60,858 bases of DNA. Origin: Gammaproteobacteria bacterium. Lineage in GTDB: Bacteria > Pseudomonadota > Gammaproteobacteria > JAJPIJ01. Shown piece by piece: positions 36,468-41,630 of this stretch. The stretch's first letter is position 1. Each line of letters begins with the position of its first letter. The position numbers and the translations under genes were made by a program. The notes under the pieces were generated by a model. The model worked only from the letters and a program-made list of their open reading frames with translations, ran no database searches and was not told the DNA's origin. Location: assembly GCA_021324815.1 (NCBI GenBank), contig JAJPIJ010000008.1, forward strand, positions 1 to 60,858, given 5' to 3'.

Positions 36468-39341
36468 ATGCCATCACCGGCAAGAACTGACGAATCCGCT
36501 GAAGTCGTCACCGGCGCGCTCAAGATCCCGCCGCACTCCATCGAGGCGGAGCAGGCCGTTCTGGGCGGCCTCATGCTCGACAACGAGGCCTGGGCAGCGG
36601 TGGCCGAACGCGTCGGCGAGGCGGATTTCTACCGCCACGATCATCGTCTCATCTTCCGCGCCATCGGCGCGCTGGCCGAGGCCGCCAAGCCCTGCGACGT
36701 CGTCACCGTCGCCGAGTGGCTGGAGCACGCCGGCGAGCTGGACAAGGCCGGCGGGCTGCCCTTCATCGCCGCGCTGGCCGAGCAGACCCCCACCGCCGCC
36801 AACGTCGTCGCCCACGCCGACATCGTCCGTTCCCGCTCGGTGCTGCGCCAGCTCATCCGCGCCGGCAGCAGCATCTCCGACATGGCCTTCCGTCCGGAGG
36901 GCCGCGCCAACGATGAATTGCTGGACGAGGCCGAGCGGCTGGTCTTCGAGATCGCCGAGCAGCATGCCCGCGGCCGCGCCGGCTATCTGCCCATCAAGCA
37001 ACTGCTGACCGGCGCGCTCGACCGCATCGACGAGCTCTACACCAAGCAGAGCCCCATCACCGGCGTGGCGACCGGCTTCAATCGTTTCGACAGCATGACC
37101 TCGGGCCTGCAACGCGCCGACCTGGTCATCATCGCCGGTCGCCCATCCATGGGGAAGTGCCTGGCTTGCGATTCGGAACTGGTGTTGGACGATGGAGCGG
37201 TGGTGGCCATCGAGGATCTCCATCGTCACGGTCGCGGGCGGCGTGTCGGCACGCTGAATGATGACTTTCGCCTCGATCGCGCCACGCCCTCCGACTACGT
37301 TGATGACGGTGTCAAGCCGGTGTTCGAGGTGATTACCAGATTGGGTCGTCGCGTTGAAACCACGCTGCCGCACCCCTTTCTTACCATTTCCGGGTGGAAA
37401 CCCCTCGCAGAATTGAGGGTGGGGGATGCGGTCGCCGTGCCACGGACATTGCCCGTATTCGGCGACGGTGACATGCGCGAATGTGAAATAAAACTTCTGG
37501 CGTATCTCATCGGTGACGGCGGCCTGACCGGCAATACCGCTCGTTTTACCAGCAGCAATCCGGCCATTGCGGCGGATTTTGCGACCGCCGTGCAAAACTT
37601 CGGCGGCCTGCGACTCACTCGCTCGGAGAATCGAGCGGGGTTTGCGCCGTCATGGCGCGTGGCGGCGGATGCCGGTCAAGTGAGGGCCGCGCGCGGTGAT
37701 TTTGCATTCAGGCTGACGCAAAGGCTGACGGAAACCTCGATCTCCCAACGCCAGCTTGCCTTTGCCGTTGGCGTCAGCCCGTCCACGATAACCCACTGGA
37801 AGCAGGGGGAGACGGTTCCCGATTCGAAGACATTCGTCCGCCTTTGTGAAGTGCTGCGGGTGACGCCGGATGGCTTGGCCCCTGGCGGCGTCGCTGCGGC
37901 GCAGGCGAACGTTCCCAATCCACTCGTGCGCTGGCTCAGCGAACACGGCTTGATGGGCAAAGCATCCTCGCAAAAGATCATCCCTCCTGTGGTATTCCGT
38001 CTTAAACGCCCCCAACTGGCGCAGTTTCTGAGCTGTTTGTTCGCCACCGACGGCTGGGCGACGGTTCTGAAATCCGGCCAGGCGCAATTGGGTTACGCCA
38101 CCGTCAATGAAAAACTGGCCCGCCAGGTGCAGCATCTGCTGCTGCGCTTCGGCGTGATTGCCTCGCTGCGCCTGCGATGGGTGCGATATCGAGAGGCTCG
38201 CCGCCCTTCCTGGCAGCTCGACATCACTCATGCCGATTCGATACTGACCTTCGCGCGCGAAATTGGAATTTTCGGCAAGGAAGAGGCCCTGGAGGCCGCG
38301 GTGCGGGCCGTGGCACAGCGCCGTCGCCAGATGAATCGCGATCTGGTGCCCGTAGAGGTATGGTCGTTGCTTGAAAAGGCAAAAGGCACCATGAGCTGGA
38401 GTGGACTTGCGCGCAAGGCCGGGGTGCCGGAGTCGAATATTCATGTACACCGCCGTGCACTGTCGCGGGCGAGGCTGGCGCGTTTCGCGCTCGCCCTGGG
38501 CGATCGGCATCTGCTCAATCTGGCGAACAGCGACGTTTATTGGGATCGCATCGTCTCGATTACGCCGGCCGGTCAGAAGCAGGTGTATGACCTGACCATC
38601 GCGGGCACCCACAATTTCATCGCCAACGACATGTGCGTGCACAACACCGCCTTGGCGCTCAACATCGCCGAGCACGCCGCCATCAAGGACAATCTACCGG
38701 TCGCGATCTTCAGCATGGAGATGCCGGGCGAGCAGCTGGCCATGCGCATGATGTCCTCGCTCGGGCGCATCGATCAGCTGCGGGTGCGCACCGGCAAGCT
38801 GCACGACGAGGACTGGCCGCGGCTGACCTCGGCGGTGCAGATGCTCTCCGAGACCAGGATGTTCGTCGACGACACGCCGGCGCTAACGCCGGGCGAGTTG
38901 CGCGCCCGCTGCCGGCGCCTGGCGCGCGAACACGGGCTGGGGCTGGTGGTGGTGGATTACCTGCAATTGATGCAGGTGCCGGGCACCAAGGAGAACCGGG
39001 CCACGGAAATCTCCGAGATTTCGCGCTCACTCAAGGCGCTGGCCAAGGAACTCAACGTGCCCATCATCGCGCTGTCGCAGTTGAACCGCAGCCTCGAGAG
39101 CCGCACCGACAAGCGGCCGGTGATGTCGGATTTGCGCGAGTCCGGCGCCATCGAGCAGGACGCCGATTTGATCGTGTTCATCTATCGCGACGAGGTCTAC
39201 AACGAGAACAGCGAGCAGAAGGGCATCGCCGAGATCATCATCGGCAAGCAGCGCAACGGCCCCATCGGCAAGATCGAGCTCGCCTTCCTCGGCCAGTTCA
39301 CGCGCTTCGAGAACCTCGCCCACGACGACTATTCCGCATGA
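36468..39341 (+). CDS. dnaB: Replicative DNA helicase DnaB precursor containing an intein
   Basis: 957 codons; removal of the 496-residue intein leaves a 461-residue helicase, the usual DnaB size. The N-terminal domain (PPHSIEAEQAVLGGLMLDNE) binds primase; the RecA-like motor domain has Walker A GRPSMGK-T split by the intein between Lys230 and Thr727, then IFSMEMPGEQLAMRMMSS, LVVVDYLQLMQ (Walker B), IIALSQLNRSLE and DLRESGAIEQDAD. DnaB is the hexameric fork helicase. Splicing is needed for an intact ATP site. ATG 36468 follows GAGGT; the stop overlaps alr (ATGA). Confidence 0.96.
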   Translation: MPSPARTDESAEVVTGALKIPPHSIEAEQAVLGGLMLDNEAWAAVAERVGEADFYRHDHRLIFRAIGALAEAAKPCDVVTVAEWLEHAGELDKAGGLPFIAALAEQTPTAANVVAHADIVRSRSVLRQLIRAGSSISDMAFRPEGRANDELLDEAERLVFEIAEQHARGRAGYLPIKQLLTGALDRIDELYTKQSPITGVATGFNRFDSMTSGLQRADLVIIAGRPSMGKCLACDSELVLDDGAVVAIEDLHRHGRGRRVGTLNDDFRLDRATPSDYVDDGVKPVFEVITRLGRRVETTLPHPFLTISGWKPLAELRVGDAVAVPRTLPVFGDGDMRECEIKLLAYLIGDGGLTGNTARFTSSNPAIAADFATAVQNFGGLRLTRSENRAGFAPSWRVAADAGQVRAARGDFAFRLTQRLTETSISQRQLAFAVGVSPSTITHWKQGETVPDSKTFVRLCEVLRVTPDGLAPGGVAAAQANVPNPLVRWLSEHGLMGKASSQKIIPPVVFRLKRPQLAQFLSCLFATDGWATVLKSGQAQLGYATVNEKLARQVQHLLLRFGVIASLRLRWVRYREARRPSWQLDITHADSILTFAREIGIFGKEEALEAAVRAVAQRRRQMNRDLVPVEVWSLLEKAKGTMSWSGLARKAGVPESNIHVHRRALSRARLARFALALGDRHLLNLANSDVYWDRIVSITPAGQKQVYDLTIAGTHNFIANDMCVHNTALALNIAEHAAIKDNLPVAIFSMEMPGEQLAMRMMSSLGRIDQLRVRTGKLHDEDWPRLTSAVQMLSETRMFVDDTPALTPGELRARCRRLAREHGLGLVVVDYLQLMQVPGTKENRATEISEISRSLKALAKELNVPIIALSQLNRSLESRTDKRPVMSDLRESGAIEQDADLIVFIYRDEVYNENSEQKGIAEIIIGKQRNGPIGKIELAFLGQFTRFENLAHDDYSA
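37158..38645 (+). mobile_element. DnaB intein with LAGLIDADG homing endonuclease and internal helix-turn-helix
   Basis: 496 codons, residues 231-726 of the precursor. It starts with Cys (CLACDSELVLDDG), has the block B Thr-x-x-His (TTLPHPFLT), and ends with block F VYDLTIAGTHNFIAND and the terminal His-Asn before Thr+1, so all splicing residues are present. LAGLIDADG-type motifs lie at about precursor residue 343 (LLAYLIGDGGL) and 517 (LAQFLSCLFATDGW). Between them (about 416-468) lies a Cro/C1-type helix-turn-helix: SISQRQLAFAVGVSPSTI. GC content and codon use look less biased than in the flanking dnaB sequence. Confidence 0.93.
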
Positions 39342-40537: not shown

Positions 40538-40801
40538 TCAGCGCCAGGATTTCGGTATGACCGGATGGAGTCGGTCGATATCCGCCTGCACCTGCTCGCG
40601 GCTGCGTTCGTACACGATCTCCCTGCCGAGTGCTTTTCCGGAATAGGCCCGGCCGTTTCGGGTCGGGGTCAAATCGCACTTGACGTTGTGGACGCCTTCA
40701 CCAAGCACCACCTGTATCCGGCTGGCCTGCTTGTTGAAGACCACCACGTCTATGGTCTGCCCGCTCTCCGTGATGCGTACCTTGATTTTTTCTGCGTCCA
40801 T
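40538..40801 (-). CDS. Small conserved hypothetical protein
   Basis: 87 residues, no signal peptide or membrane span. The sequence reads as a small soluble alpha/beta protein: IKVRITESGQTIDVVVFNKQ, RIQVVLGEGVHNVKCDLTPT, GREIVYERSREQVQADID. I do not recognise a family with certainty; the pattern of short beta strands followed by a C-terminal helix is plausible for a real protein, and codon use matches the neighbours. It converges on alr with a 27-base gap. Confidence 0.6.
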   Translation of the reverse strand: MDAEKIKVRITESGQTIDVVVFNKQASRIQVVLGEGVHNVKCDLTPTRNGRAYSGKALGREIVYERSREQVQADIDRLHPVIPKSWR

Positions 40802-40832
40802 TCATTAACTCCGCCCAAGTCTCGAATGACAT

Positions 40833-40850
40833 GTTAGCAGGTTGATGCAA
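40833..40850. repeat. Second copy of the dispersed-repeat edge
   Basis: GTTAGCAGGTTGATGCAA, an 18-base exact match to 15611-15628, the left edge of the inverted-repeat element. Here only the edge is present. It supplies the last codons and stop of the broken gene at 40834-40982. Confidence 0.7.
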
Positions 40851-40982
40851 TTGGATTGGGATTCGGGTCCGAAGTCAGCCCCAGCTTTGCGAACGGGATG
40901 ATGAAAAGCAGCGGACCTGAGCCGAACACACCAGCAGTGCCAGCCCTATCTTCACCAGCCGATTCTCCAGATATTTTTTCAT
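40834..40982 (-). pseudogene. Frameshifted small membrane protein
   Basis: ATG 40982 opens MKKYLENRLVKIGLALLV; the frame then breaks, and a second frame continues FGSGPLLFIIPFAKLGLTSD followed by PNPNPI. Read together these make a typical one-helix small membrane protein. The break sits at a GTGTGT stretch (complement, about 40927-40932), where one extra GT would explain the shift. The C-terminal codons after PNPNPI and the TAA come from the dispersed repeat, so the original end is also lost. The unbroken frame stops early after about 35 codons. Confidence 0.6.
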
Positions 40983-40991
40983 TTTGTATTC

Positions 40992-41070
40992 TCGAACGCC
41001 CGCGCTCACCGGCGGCGCTGGAACCGCGAAGCGGCGACAGCGACGTCCGAGTGGAGCGCGTTGTTGTGCG
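40992..41070 (-). repeat. Integron attC-like recombination site
   Basis: On the minus strand the sequence begins CGCACAACAACGCGC immediately after the stop codon of the gene at 41071 and ends GCGGGCGTTC. The arms CGCGCTCcACTCGG and CACGCTC-like CCGGTGAGCGCG pair over seven bases with unpaired extra bases beyond, as in attC sites, and a central CCGC-GAA-GCGG hairpin lies at 41024-41034. The R' box GTTCGAG deviates from consensus GTTRRRY. No integron integrase is in view. Confidence 0.5.
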
Positions 41071-41370
41071 TCATTTCGTCAACCCAAGCCACAGGGTTAC
41101 AGCCGCCGAAAGGACTGCGGAGAGAACTGCTATTGCGATGGCGCCCAAAGGCTTCTGCCACCATTGCAACTCTTGGCTTAAGCGAGCACTAAGGGCCATT
41201 TCCACTCGTTTCCAACGTTGCTCGAACTGTGGGTTATTGGAAGTGGGGCTGTCGCGCAGCAGCGAATCACGCTCCTTTCTAACCTGGGCGAACGGGAGGG
41301 AATCGATCGCGCTGGTCTTAACGATAGCCTCGATTCGTTCGAAGTTAGCGACGCGATCTGCTTCCGACAT
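41071..41370 (-). CDS. Small tail-anchored hypothetical protein (possible gene cassette)
   Basis: 99 residues from ATG 41370 (MSEADRVANFERIEAIV). A TTG 33 bases upstream is less likely. The N-terminal two thirds are charged and helical (FAQVRKERDSLLRDS, RWKRVEMALSARLSQEL); a single hydrophobic span near the C-terminus (LGAIAIAVLSAVLSAAVTLWLG) should anchor it in the membrane. I do not recognise the family. It is less GC-biased than its neighbours, and an attC-like palindrome begins directly after the stop codon, as in integron gene cassettes. Confidence 0.6.
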   Translation of the reverse strand: MSEADRVANFERIEAIVKTSAIDSLPFAQVRKERDSLLRDSPTSNNPQFEQRWKRVEMALSARLSQELQWWQKPLGAIAIAVLSAVLSAAVTLWLGLTK

Positions 41371-41420
41371 GGTCAGTTCACCGCGCTTGTTAATGACGCA
41401 CAACTAGAATTAGACGACCT

Positions 41421-41442
41421 AAAAGTCGCTTTATAAAGCGAC
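41421..41442 (-). terminator. Rho-independent terminator-like dyad
   Basis: GTCGCTTTATAAAGCGAC (41425-41442) is a perfect 18-base dyad; on the minus strand it is followed by TTTT. It could end leftward transcription from the NTF2-like gene (stop at 41631). The rest of the AT-rich gap 41371-41630 holds no gene that I can support; GGGGTCGACTCAGACC near 41606-41621 resembles edges seen near insertion elements but cannot be assigned. Confidence 0.5.
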
Positions 41443-41630
41443 AAACTACTGTATAAATCTGTCGGGGCGTCAATCATAAGCTCAAAATTCAAGCACTTGC
41501 TTTCCAATAGTACACCCTAAAAGCTGGAAACAAACGCAACTTCAAAGATAAGGTTTGAATCATAGCTTCACAGCATAATTATTGCGCTTGCATCAGTAAT
41601 CAATGGGGTCGACTCAGACCAATATTAATT

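Follow-up and report, generated by a model that had tools for sequence, protein, structure and literature searches.

The minus strand of the window, the whole 60,858-nucleotide stretch of contig JAJPIJ010000008.1 analysed here, raises the question of whether an integron gene cassette can lie in a chromosome with no integrase gene (intI) beside it and, if so, how it was captured there. Many bacterial genomes contain cassette clusters without an integrase, and how these arose is under debate. A sequence-only reading had proposed a possible lone cassette at 40992–41370, encoding a small membrane protein and ending in an attC-like site. We find that the element, termed cassette A, is a cassette and that it lies next to a second, decayed one, cassette B. 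The reading that we favor, with fair confidence, is that cassette A is joined at the canonical G|TT crossover to an attI lacking intI, that this platform was probably loaded by the integron integrase (IntI) in trans, and that cassettes have been exchanged there. Coordinates of all features are collected in Table 1.

Table 1. Features of the cassette locus in the window
Feature	Position	Strand	Description	Basis
Left part of attI module	41462..41540	minus	counterpart of the intI–attI intergenic region, extending almost to the intI ribosome-binding site	alignment and conservation step at ~137 bp
Orphan attI core (attI-type by homology)	41404..41461	minus	TATACAGTA half LexA box, palindrome, TTTAGGTCGTCTAATTCTAG; last base is the G of the G|TT crossover	
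attI palindrome	41425..41442	minus	GTCGCTTTATAAAGCGAC; maintained by paired changes in relatives	
GTTGTGCGTCATT	41392..41404	minus	G of attI plus 5' end of cassette A; gives the circular cassette a perfect R' box	
Integron gene cassette A	40997..41403	minus	407 bp; first base T41403, last base G40997	13-nt 5'/R'' complementarity and sibling homology ending at both ends
Cassette A ORF	41071..41370	minus	99 aa, helical, one C-terminal transmembrane-like helix; orphan	
attC	40991..41069	minus	R'' GCACAAC, L'' with extrahelical C, central hairpin, L', R' GTTCGAG	covariance model R1, geometry, DNA fold
Cassette B remnant	40840..40996	minus	gene for a small membrane protein; with a frameshift and a 3' truncation in the window, intact (73 aa) in sibling G001	
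Cassette B truncated attC	40803..40839	minus	R''-L'' CTAACATGTCATTCGAG, then GGAGTTAATG	sequence; no R1 match
87-aa gene after cassette B remnant	40538..40801	minus	conserved gene	

Cassette A and its attC site

An Rfam search returned a tRNA match and no attC match; we therefore built our own attC covariance model, R1, from 24 attC sites of integron arrays in the same class (90.5% standard pair cells; covariation above that of all 500 shuffled alignments). R1 matches 41068–40991 with 41.9 bits, an E-value of 8.6e-8 for 248 kb of sequence. In the complete 2.37-Mb genome (E 8.1e-7) no attC scores higher, and this is the only R1 match in the window at E ≤ 10; its score lies mid-range among 137 R1 attC matches in 26 loci. 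The site has R''/R' and L''/L' boxes, an extrahelical base and a terminal hairpin. It directly adjoins the stop codon of the 99-aa ORF, its L boxes GCGCTC/GAGCGC form 6/6 pairs in the canonical register, and the extrahelical C stands at the canonical position. A strict attC string search missed the site because its R' box is eroded.

The ends of cassette A disclose the origin of that box. Directly after G41404 the cassette begins with TTGTGCGTCATT, and GTTGTGCGTCATT (41404–41392) is a 13-nt perfect complement of AATGACGCACAAC (41075–41063) on the R'' side of attC; in 20,000 shuffles the end match never exceeded 10 nt. The excised circle would therefore carry a perfect attC. When joined as in the circle, with G|TT boundaries, the 3' and 5' ends form a full attC with both boxes paired, folding at −38 (top) and −40.6 kcal/mol (bottom), whereas the bottom strand of the integrated site folds at −26.9 kcal/mol. 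The unusual R' box GTTCGAG is thus no defect of cassette A, to which its G alone belongs: because decayed cassette B follows, the box consists of the attC G and the eroded 5' end of the neighbor, TTCGAG... being the eroded start of cassette B.

A chance palindrome or terminator behind a normal gene, with no integron feature involved, would fit the single-strand fold z-score of only −2.0 for the integrated site, but is refuted by the attC match (E 8e-7), the 13-nt end match and the cassette swap in a sibling genome described below. The stretch 41403–40997 is a genuine integron gene cassette. The sequence-only reading is thereby borne out in its main proposal and in its details, namely a palindrome right after the stop codon with an extra unpaired base and a central hairpin, and a gene less GC-biased than its surroundings (0.58 for cassette A versus 0.64 for the window); the low attC score that would have spoken against it did not occur. 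Its extent has to be redrawn from 40992–41370 to 40997–41403. It was right that the R' box deviates, the cause lying in cassette B and not in cassette A. The window holds one good attC, and the cassette is not fully alone.

The 99-aa product carries one C-terminal hydrophobic helix, and a single-sequence structure model predicts four helices with the hydrophobic one last (mean pLDDT 70). No protein family match was obtained, and no relatives were found in plasmids, phages, viral contigs or genome contigs, which leaves the suggested search for the same cassette in other arrays without homologues; marginal class-level matches were inspected for attC and discarded. The putative product is an orphan, as cassette products commonly are, and is probably a small membrane-anchored helical protein. 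A sigma-70 promoter scan found nothing.

Beyond the window, R1 gave further lone attC candidates in the same genome, G000 (C21:46147-46238, C7:7969-8027, C7:4999-5065 and C26:65140-65207; 37.2 to 19.9 bits), none with a recognizable cassette start or boundary. In sibling G001, a strong attC of 59.4 bits lies directly behind an oxidoreductase-like ORF (L077 1501-1560, minus strand; C11:9120-9179). Its core is altered pairwise, GAC...GTC instead of AAC...GTT; single GTC cores also occur in a few other attC sites.

Exchange of cassettes in a sibling genome

G001, a genome of the same genus, aligns with the window up to 41402 and again from 40993, its homology ending within a few bases of the predicted ends of cassette A, with the break at G|TT. 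Its slot is flanked as in the window, by the same attI on one side and the older cassette B on the other, but holds an unrelated 207-aa cassette. The start of this cassette, G|TTAGACGGCC, complements its own R'' over 11 nt, and its attC scores 28.8 bits with R1. Because the whole slot is on contig C31, the exchange needs no contig join. Relatives thus differ at one defined site, and on this genome comparison the cassettes at the slot have been exchanged.

Cassette B is intact in G001, in two contigs overlapping by exactly 141 bp; neither G001 nor the window has more than a truncated attC for it. In Pseudoxanthomonas and in a Rokubacteria MAG its relatives are flanked by attC sites, and cassette B is therefore a real cassette gene. 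A large cassette array was considered for the 13 kb that separate alr from the 87-aa gene in the sibling but is rejected: this stretch (L048 3000-15725) is a Flp/Tad pilus locus, which is absent from the window. Elsewhere in the window, at 36468-39341 (plus strand), a DnaB replicative helicase is interrupted by an intein with LAGLIDADG and, unusually, a Cro/C1-type helix-turn-helix domain as well.

An attI-type site in front of cassette A

The 227 bp left of the junction, up to G41404, are noncoding and conserved in G001. In a class-wide search, the 52 bp that run up to the junction base recurred at two loci in G085, a genome of another family, where G|TTAGG is followed by cassettes with attC sites of 60.2, 55.8 and 40.7 bits. 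The same element lies directly upstream of intI in G085, with a perfect LexA box, TACTGTATAAATATACAGTA. L024, L043 and L026 have weaker relatives 46–67 bp upstream of where the IntI N-terminus is estimated to lie. In L135 the distance is 202 bp, with a tblastn match that begins late, and in L032 the relative overlaps the estimated intI start. All intI-linked relatives have the palindrome followed by a TTTAGGnnGTCTAnTTnTAG|TTA-like sequence, and homologous sites adjacent to and divergent from intI are present in L144/L034, L026, L043, L024 and L135. A terminator scan flagged the palindrome, which we assign to attI. Its letters change in pairs (alignment A5 plus L026, L043 and L032), so that sequence varies among integrons while self-complementarity stays, which suggests a structural or dimer-binding role.

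By homology, the ~58 bp before cassette A (module ~137 bp) are an attI-type site without an adjoining intI, and the first cassette is joined at its G|TT. SnoaL and HAD genes hold the place of intI, and the locus is not a complete integron.

Insertion of cassette A by IntI into an ordinary chromosomal attG, with plain intergenic DNA as the left flank, would account for a cassette that has no intI beside it in a genome that has one elsewhere. An attG is neither attI nor attC, whereas this site is attI-like; the same 52–61 bp occur behind different genes in several genomes and beside intI, and two different cassettes used the same base in sister species. We regard such an off-target event as very improbable.

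A family of orphan attI sites

A profile, R2, was built from only five copies of the site, and the 87.3 bits of the window core have to be read with the window copy being one of these seeds. R2 found 21 sites in 13/370 genomes. Within 1.5 kb, 18/21 sites have no intI, two have intI and one (G250) has a 57-aa intI fragment. Eleven of the 18 orphan sites are followed by an attC in the same orientation, and one draft genome can hold up to three orphan sites. At many sites a host gene pointing at the attI stops 15 to ~200 bp short of the junction, too little space for an intI. Orthologous upstream flanks with unrelated first cassettes were seen in four groups: window/G001, G374b/G375b, G085b/G373a/G369c and G369a/G373b/G371. 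Conservation increases abruptly at ATGTCGTGTTTG, ~137 bp from the junction; in the intI-linked copy this point is located directly in front of the intI ribosome-binding site. LexA boxes reach 19/20 in the intI-linked copy and in one orphan, and are weaker in the others. Plasmids and viral contigs yielded no good copy of the module.

These sites could be relics of former integrons. Complete integrons would have lost the intI coding sequence and left promoter, attI and last cassettes as a very short CALIN, with the exchange preceding or accompanying the loss. The exact match of the module to the intI–cassette intergenic region, with full or half LexA boxes, the intI fragment retained in G250 and the progressive loss of intI activity in published Xanthomonas integrons (PMC12444791) all accord with such deletions. 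Against them stand the number of orphan sites in single draft genomes, left ends that agree just before the intI ribosome-binding site at many unrelated loci, and an intI remnant at one site only; differing cassettes at orthologous sites moreover mean that the sites stayed in use. We take this history seriously but doubt that it is the correct one.

The sharp left boundary across unrelated loci, the location shortly behind host genes in the same orientation and the several copies per genome would also suit a ~137-bp attI unit (ATGTCGTGTTTG...TAG) that moves as a discrete element and founds new docking sites. No target duplication, transposase or clean empty site has been shown for it, however, and its left end could instead be the limit of a conserved promoter/attI region; we consider such mobility unlikely. 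The wider proposition, that ~137-bp modules without integrase spread as discrete units and that many loci are capture platforms sharing one IntI in trans, is put forward tentatively; if true, part of the integrase-less cassette clusters would be active satellites and not relics.

Integrases and proposed loading in trans

The sequence-only reading saw no second attC or integrase and advised looking for an integrase elsewhere in the genome. No intI lies beside the cassette, but cassette B retains its truncated attC, and contig C17 of the window's genome encodes an intact 328-aa IntI (486.6 bits against a cut-off of 265) with the motifs TGMRL, HALRHSF and GHSDVSTTMIYTHV. Its gene adjoins a topoisomerase IV subunit B (parE)-like gene and is not near the window; the protein is not especially close to G085 IntI. 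The case for activity in this genome today is weakest at the region upstream of C17 intI, which has no R2 match and differs from the orphan attI type. In sibling G001 no intI scores above the cut-off, and the parE/intI region is missing from its assembly. Upstream of C17 intI, L006 13277-13560 contains a long inverted repeat (CGGAACGGAGTTGAGC...GCTCAACTCCGTTCCG) and a 223-aa HTH-like ORF; this region has no attC or attI match, and the contig ends soon after.

For the favored reading of loading in trans, which we infer, the following course is envisaged. An integron integrase supplied in trans would recombine the folded bottom-strand attC of a circular cassette with the orphan attI. The newest cassette would land immediately behind attI, while older ones such as cassette B would decay further downstream. 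In this way the orphan attI would serve as a secondary capture platform with no integrase of its own, and related genomes would carry many such modules dispersed behind their host genes.

Relation to known systems and implications

Cassette A differs in nothing essential from known integron gene cassettes: it has an ORF, an attC with R and L boxes, extrahelical base and central hairpin, G|TT boundaries and complementary ends, and its protein is an orphan. With known chromosomal integron attI sites (those linked to intI in G085 and its relatives), the orphan attI has the core sequence, palindrome, G|TT point and LexA half box in common; it differs in the absence of intI and in its several copies per genome behind unrelated host genes. 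CALIN and SALIN elements (PMC9024848, PMC12690207) likewise have no adjoining intI. A CALIN comprises at least two attC without intI; the present locus has one good and one truncated attC, and with one it would be a SALIN. Their definition includes no attI, whereas this locus starts at a recognizable one. At attG sites, too, cassettes lie outside complete integrons (IntI-mediated insertion: Loot et al. 2024, as cited in PMC12901181 and PMC12444791), but these are diverse chromosomal sequences, while here one conserved attI-type sequence is used repeatedly. CALIN, SALIN, the trans use of CALIN cassettes and insertion at attG are all on record (PMC9024848, PMC12690207, PMC12444791, PMC9668308, PMC12901181). 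In the part of the literature covered by our search for orphan, additional or ectopic attI, there was no report of multiple attI sites without intI.

The palindrome followed by TTTAGGnnGTCTAnTTnTAG|TT offers a search consensus for orphan attI sites. The usual tools detect attC and intI and recognize few attI sequences; orphan sites would escape them for that reason. Clusters that start at a conserved, reused attI lead to a testable claim, that one integrase may serve several chromosomal docking sites.
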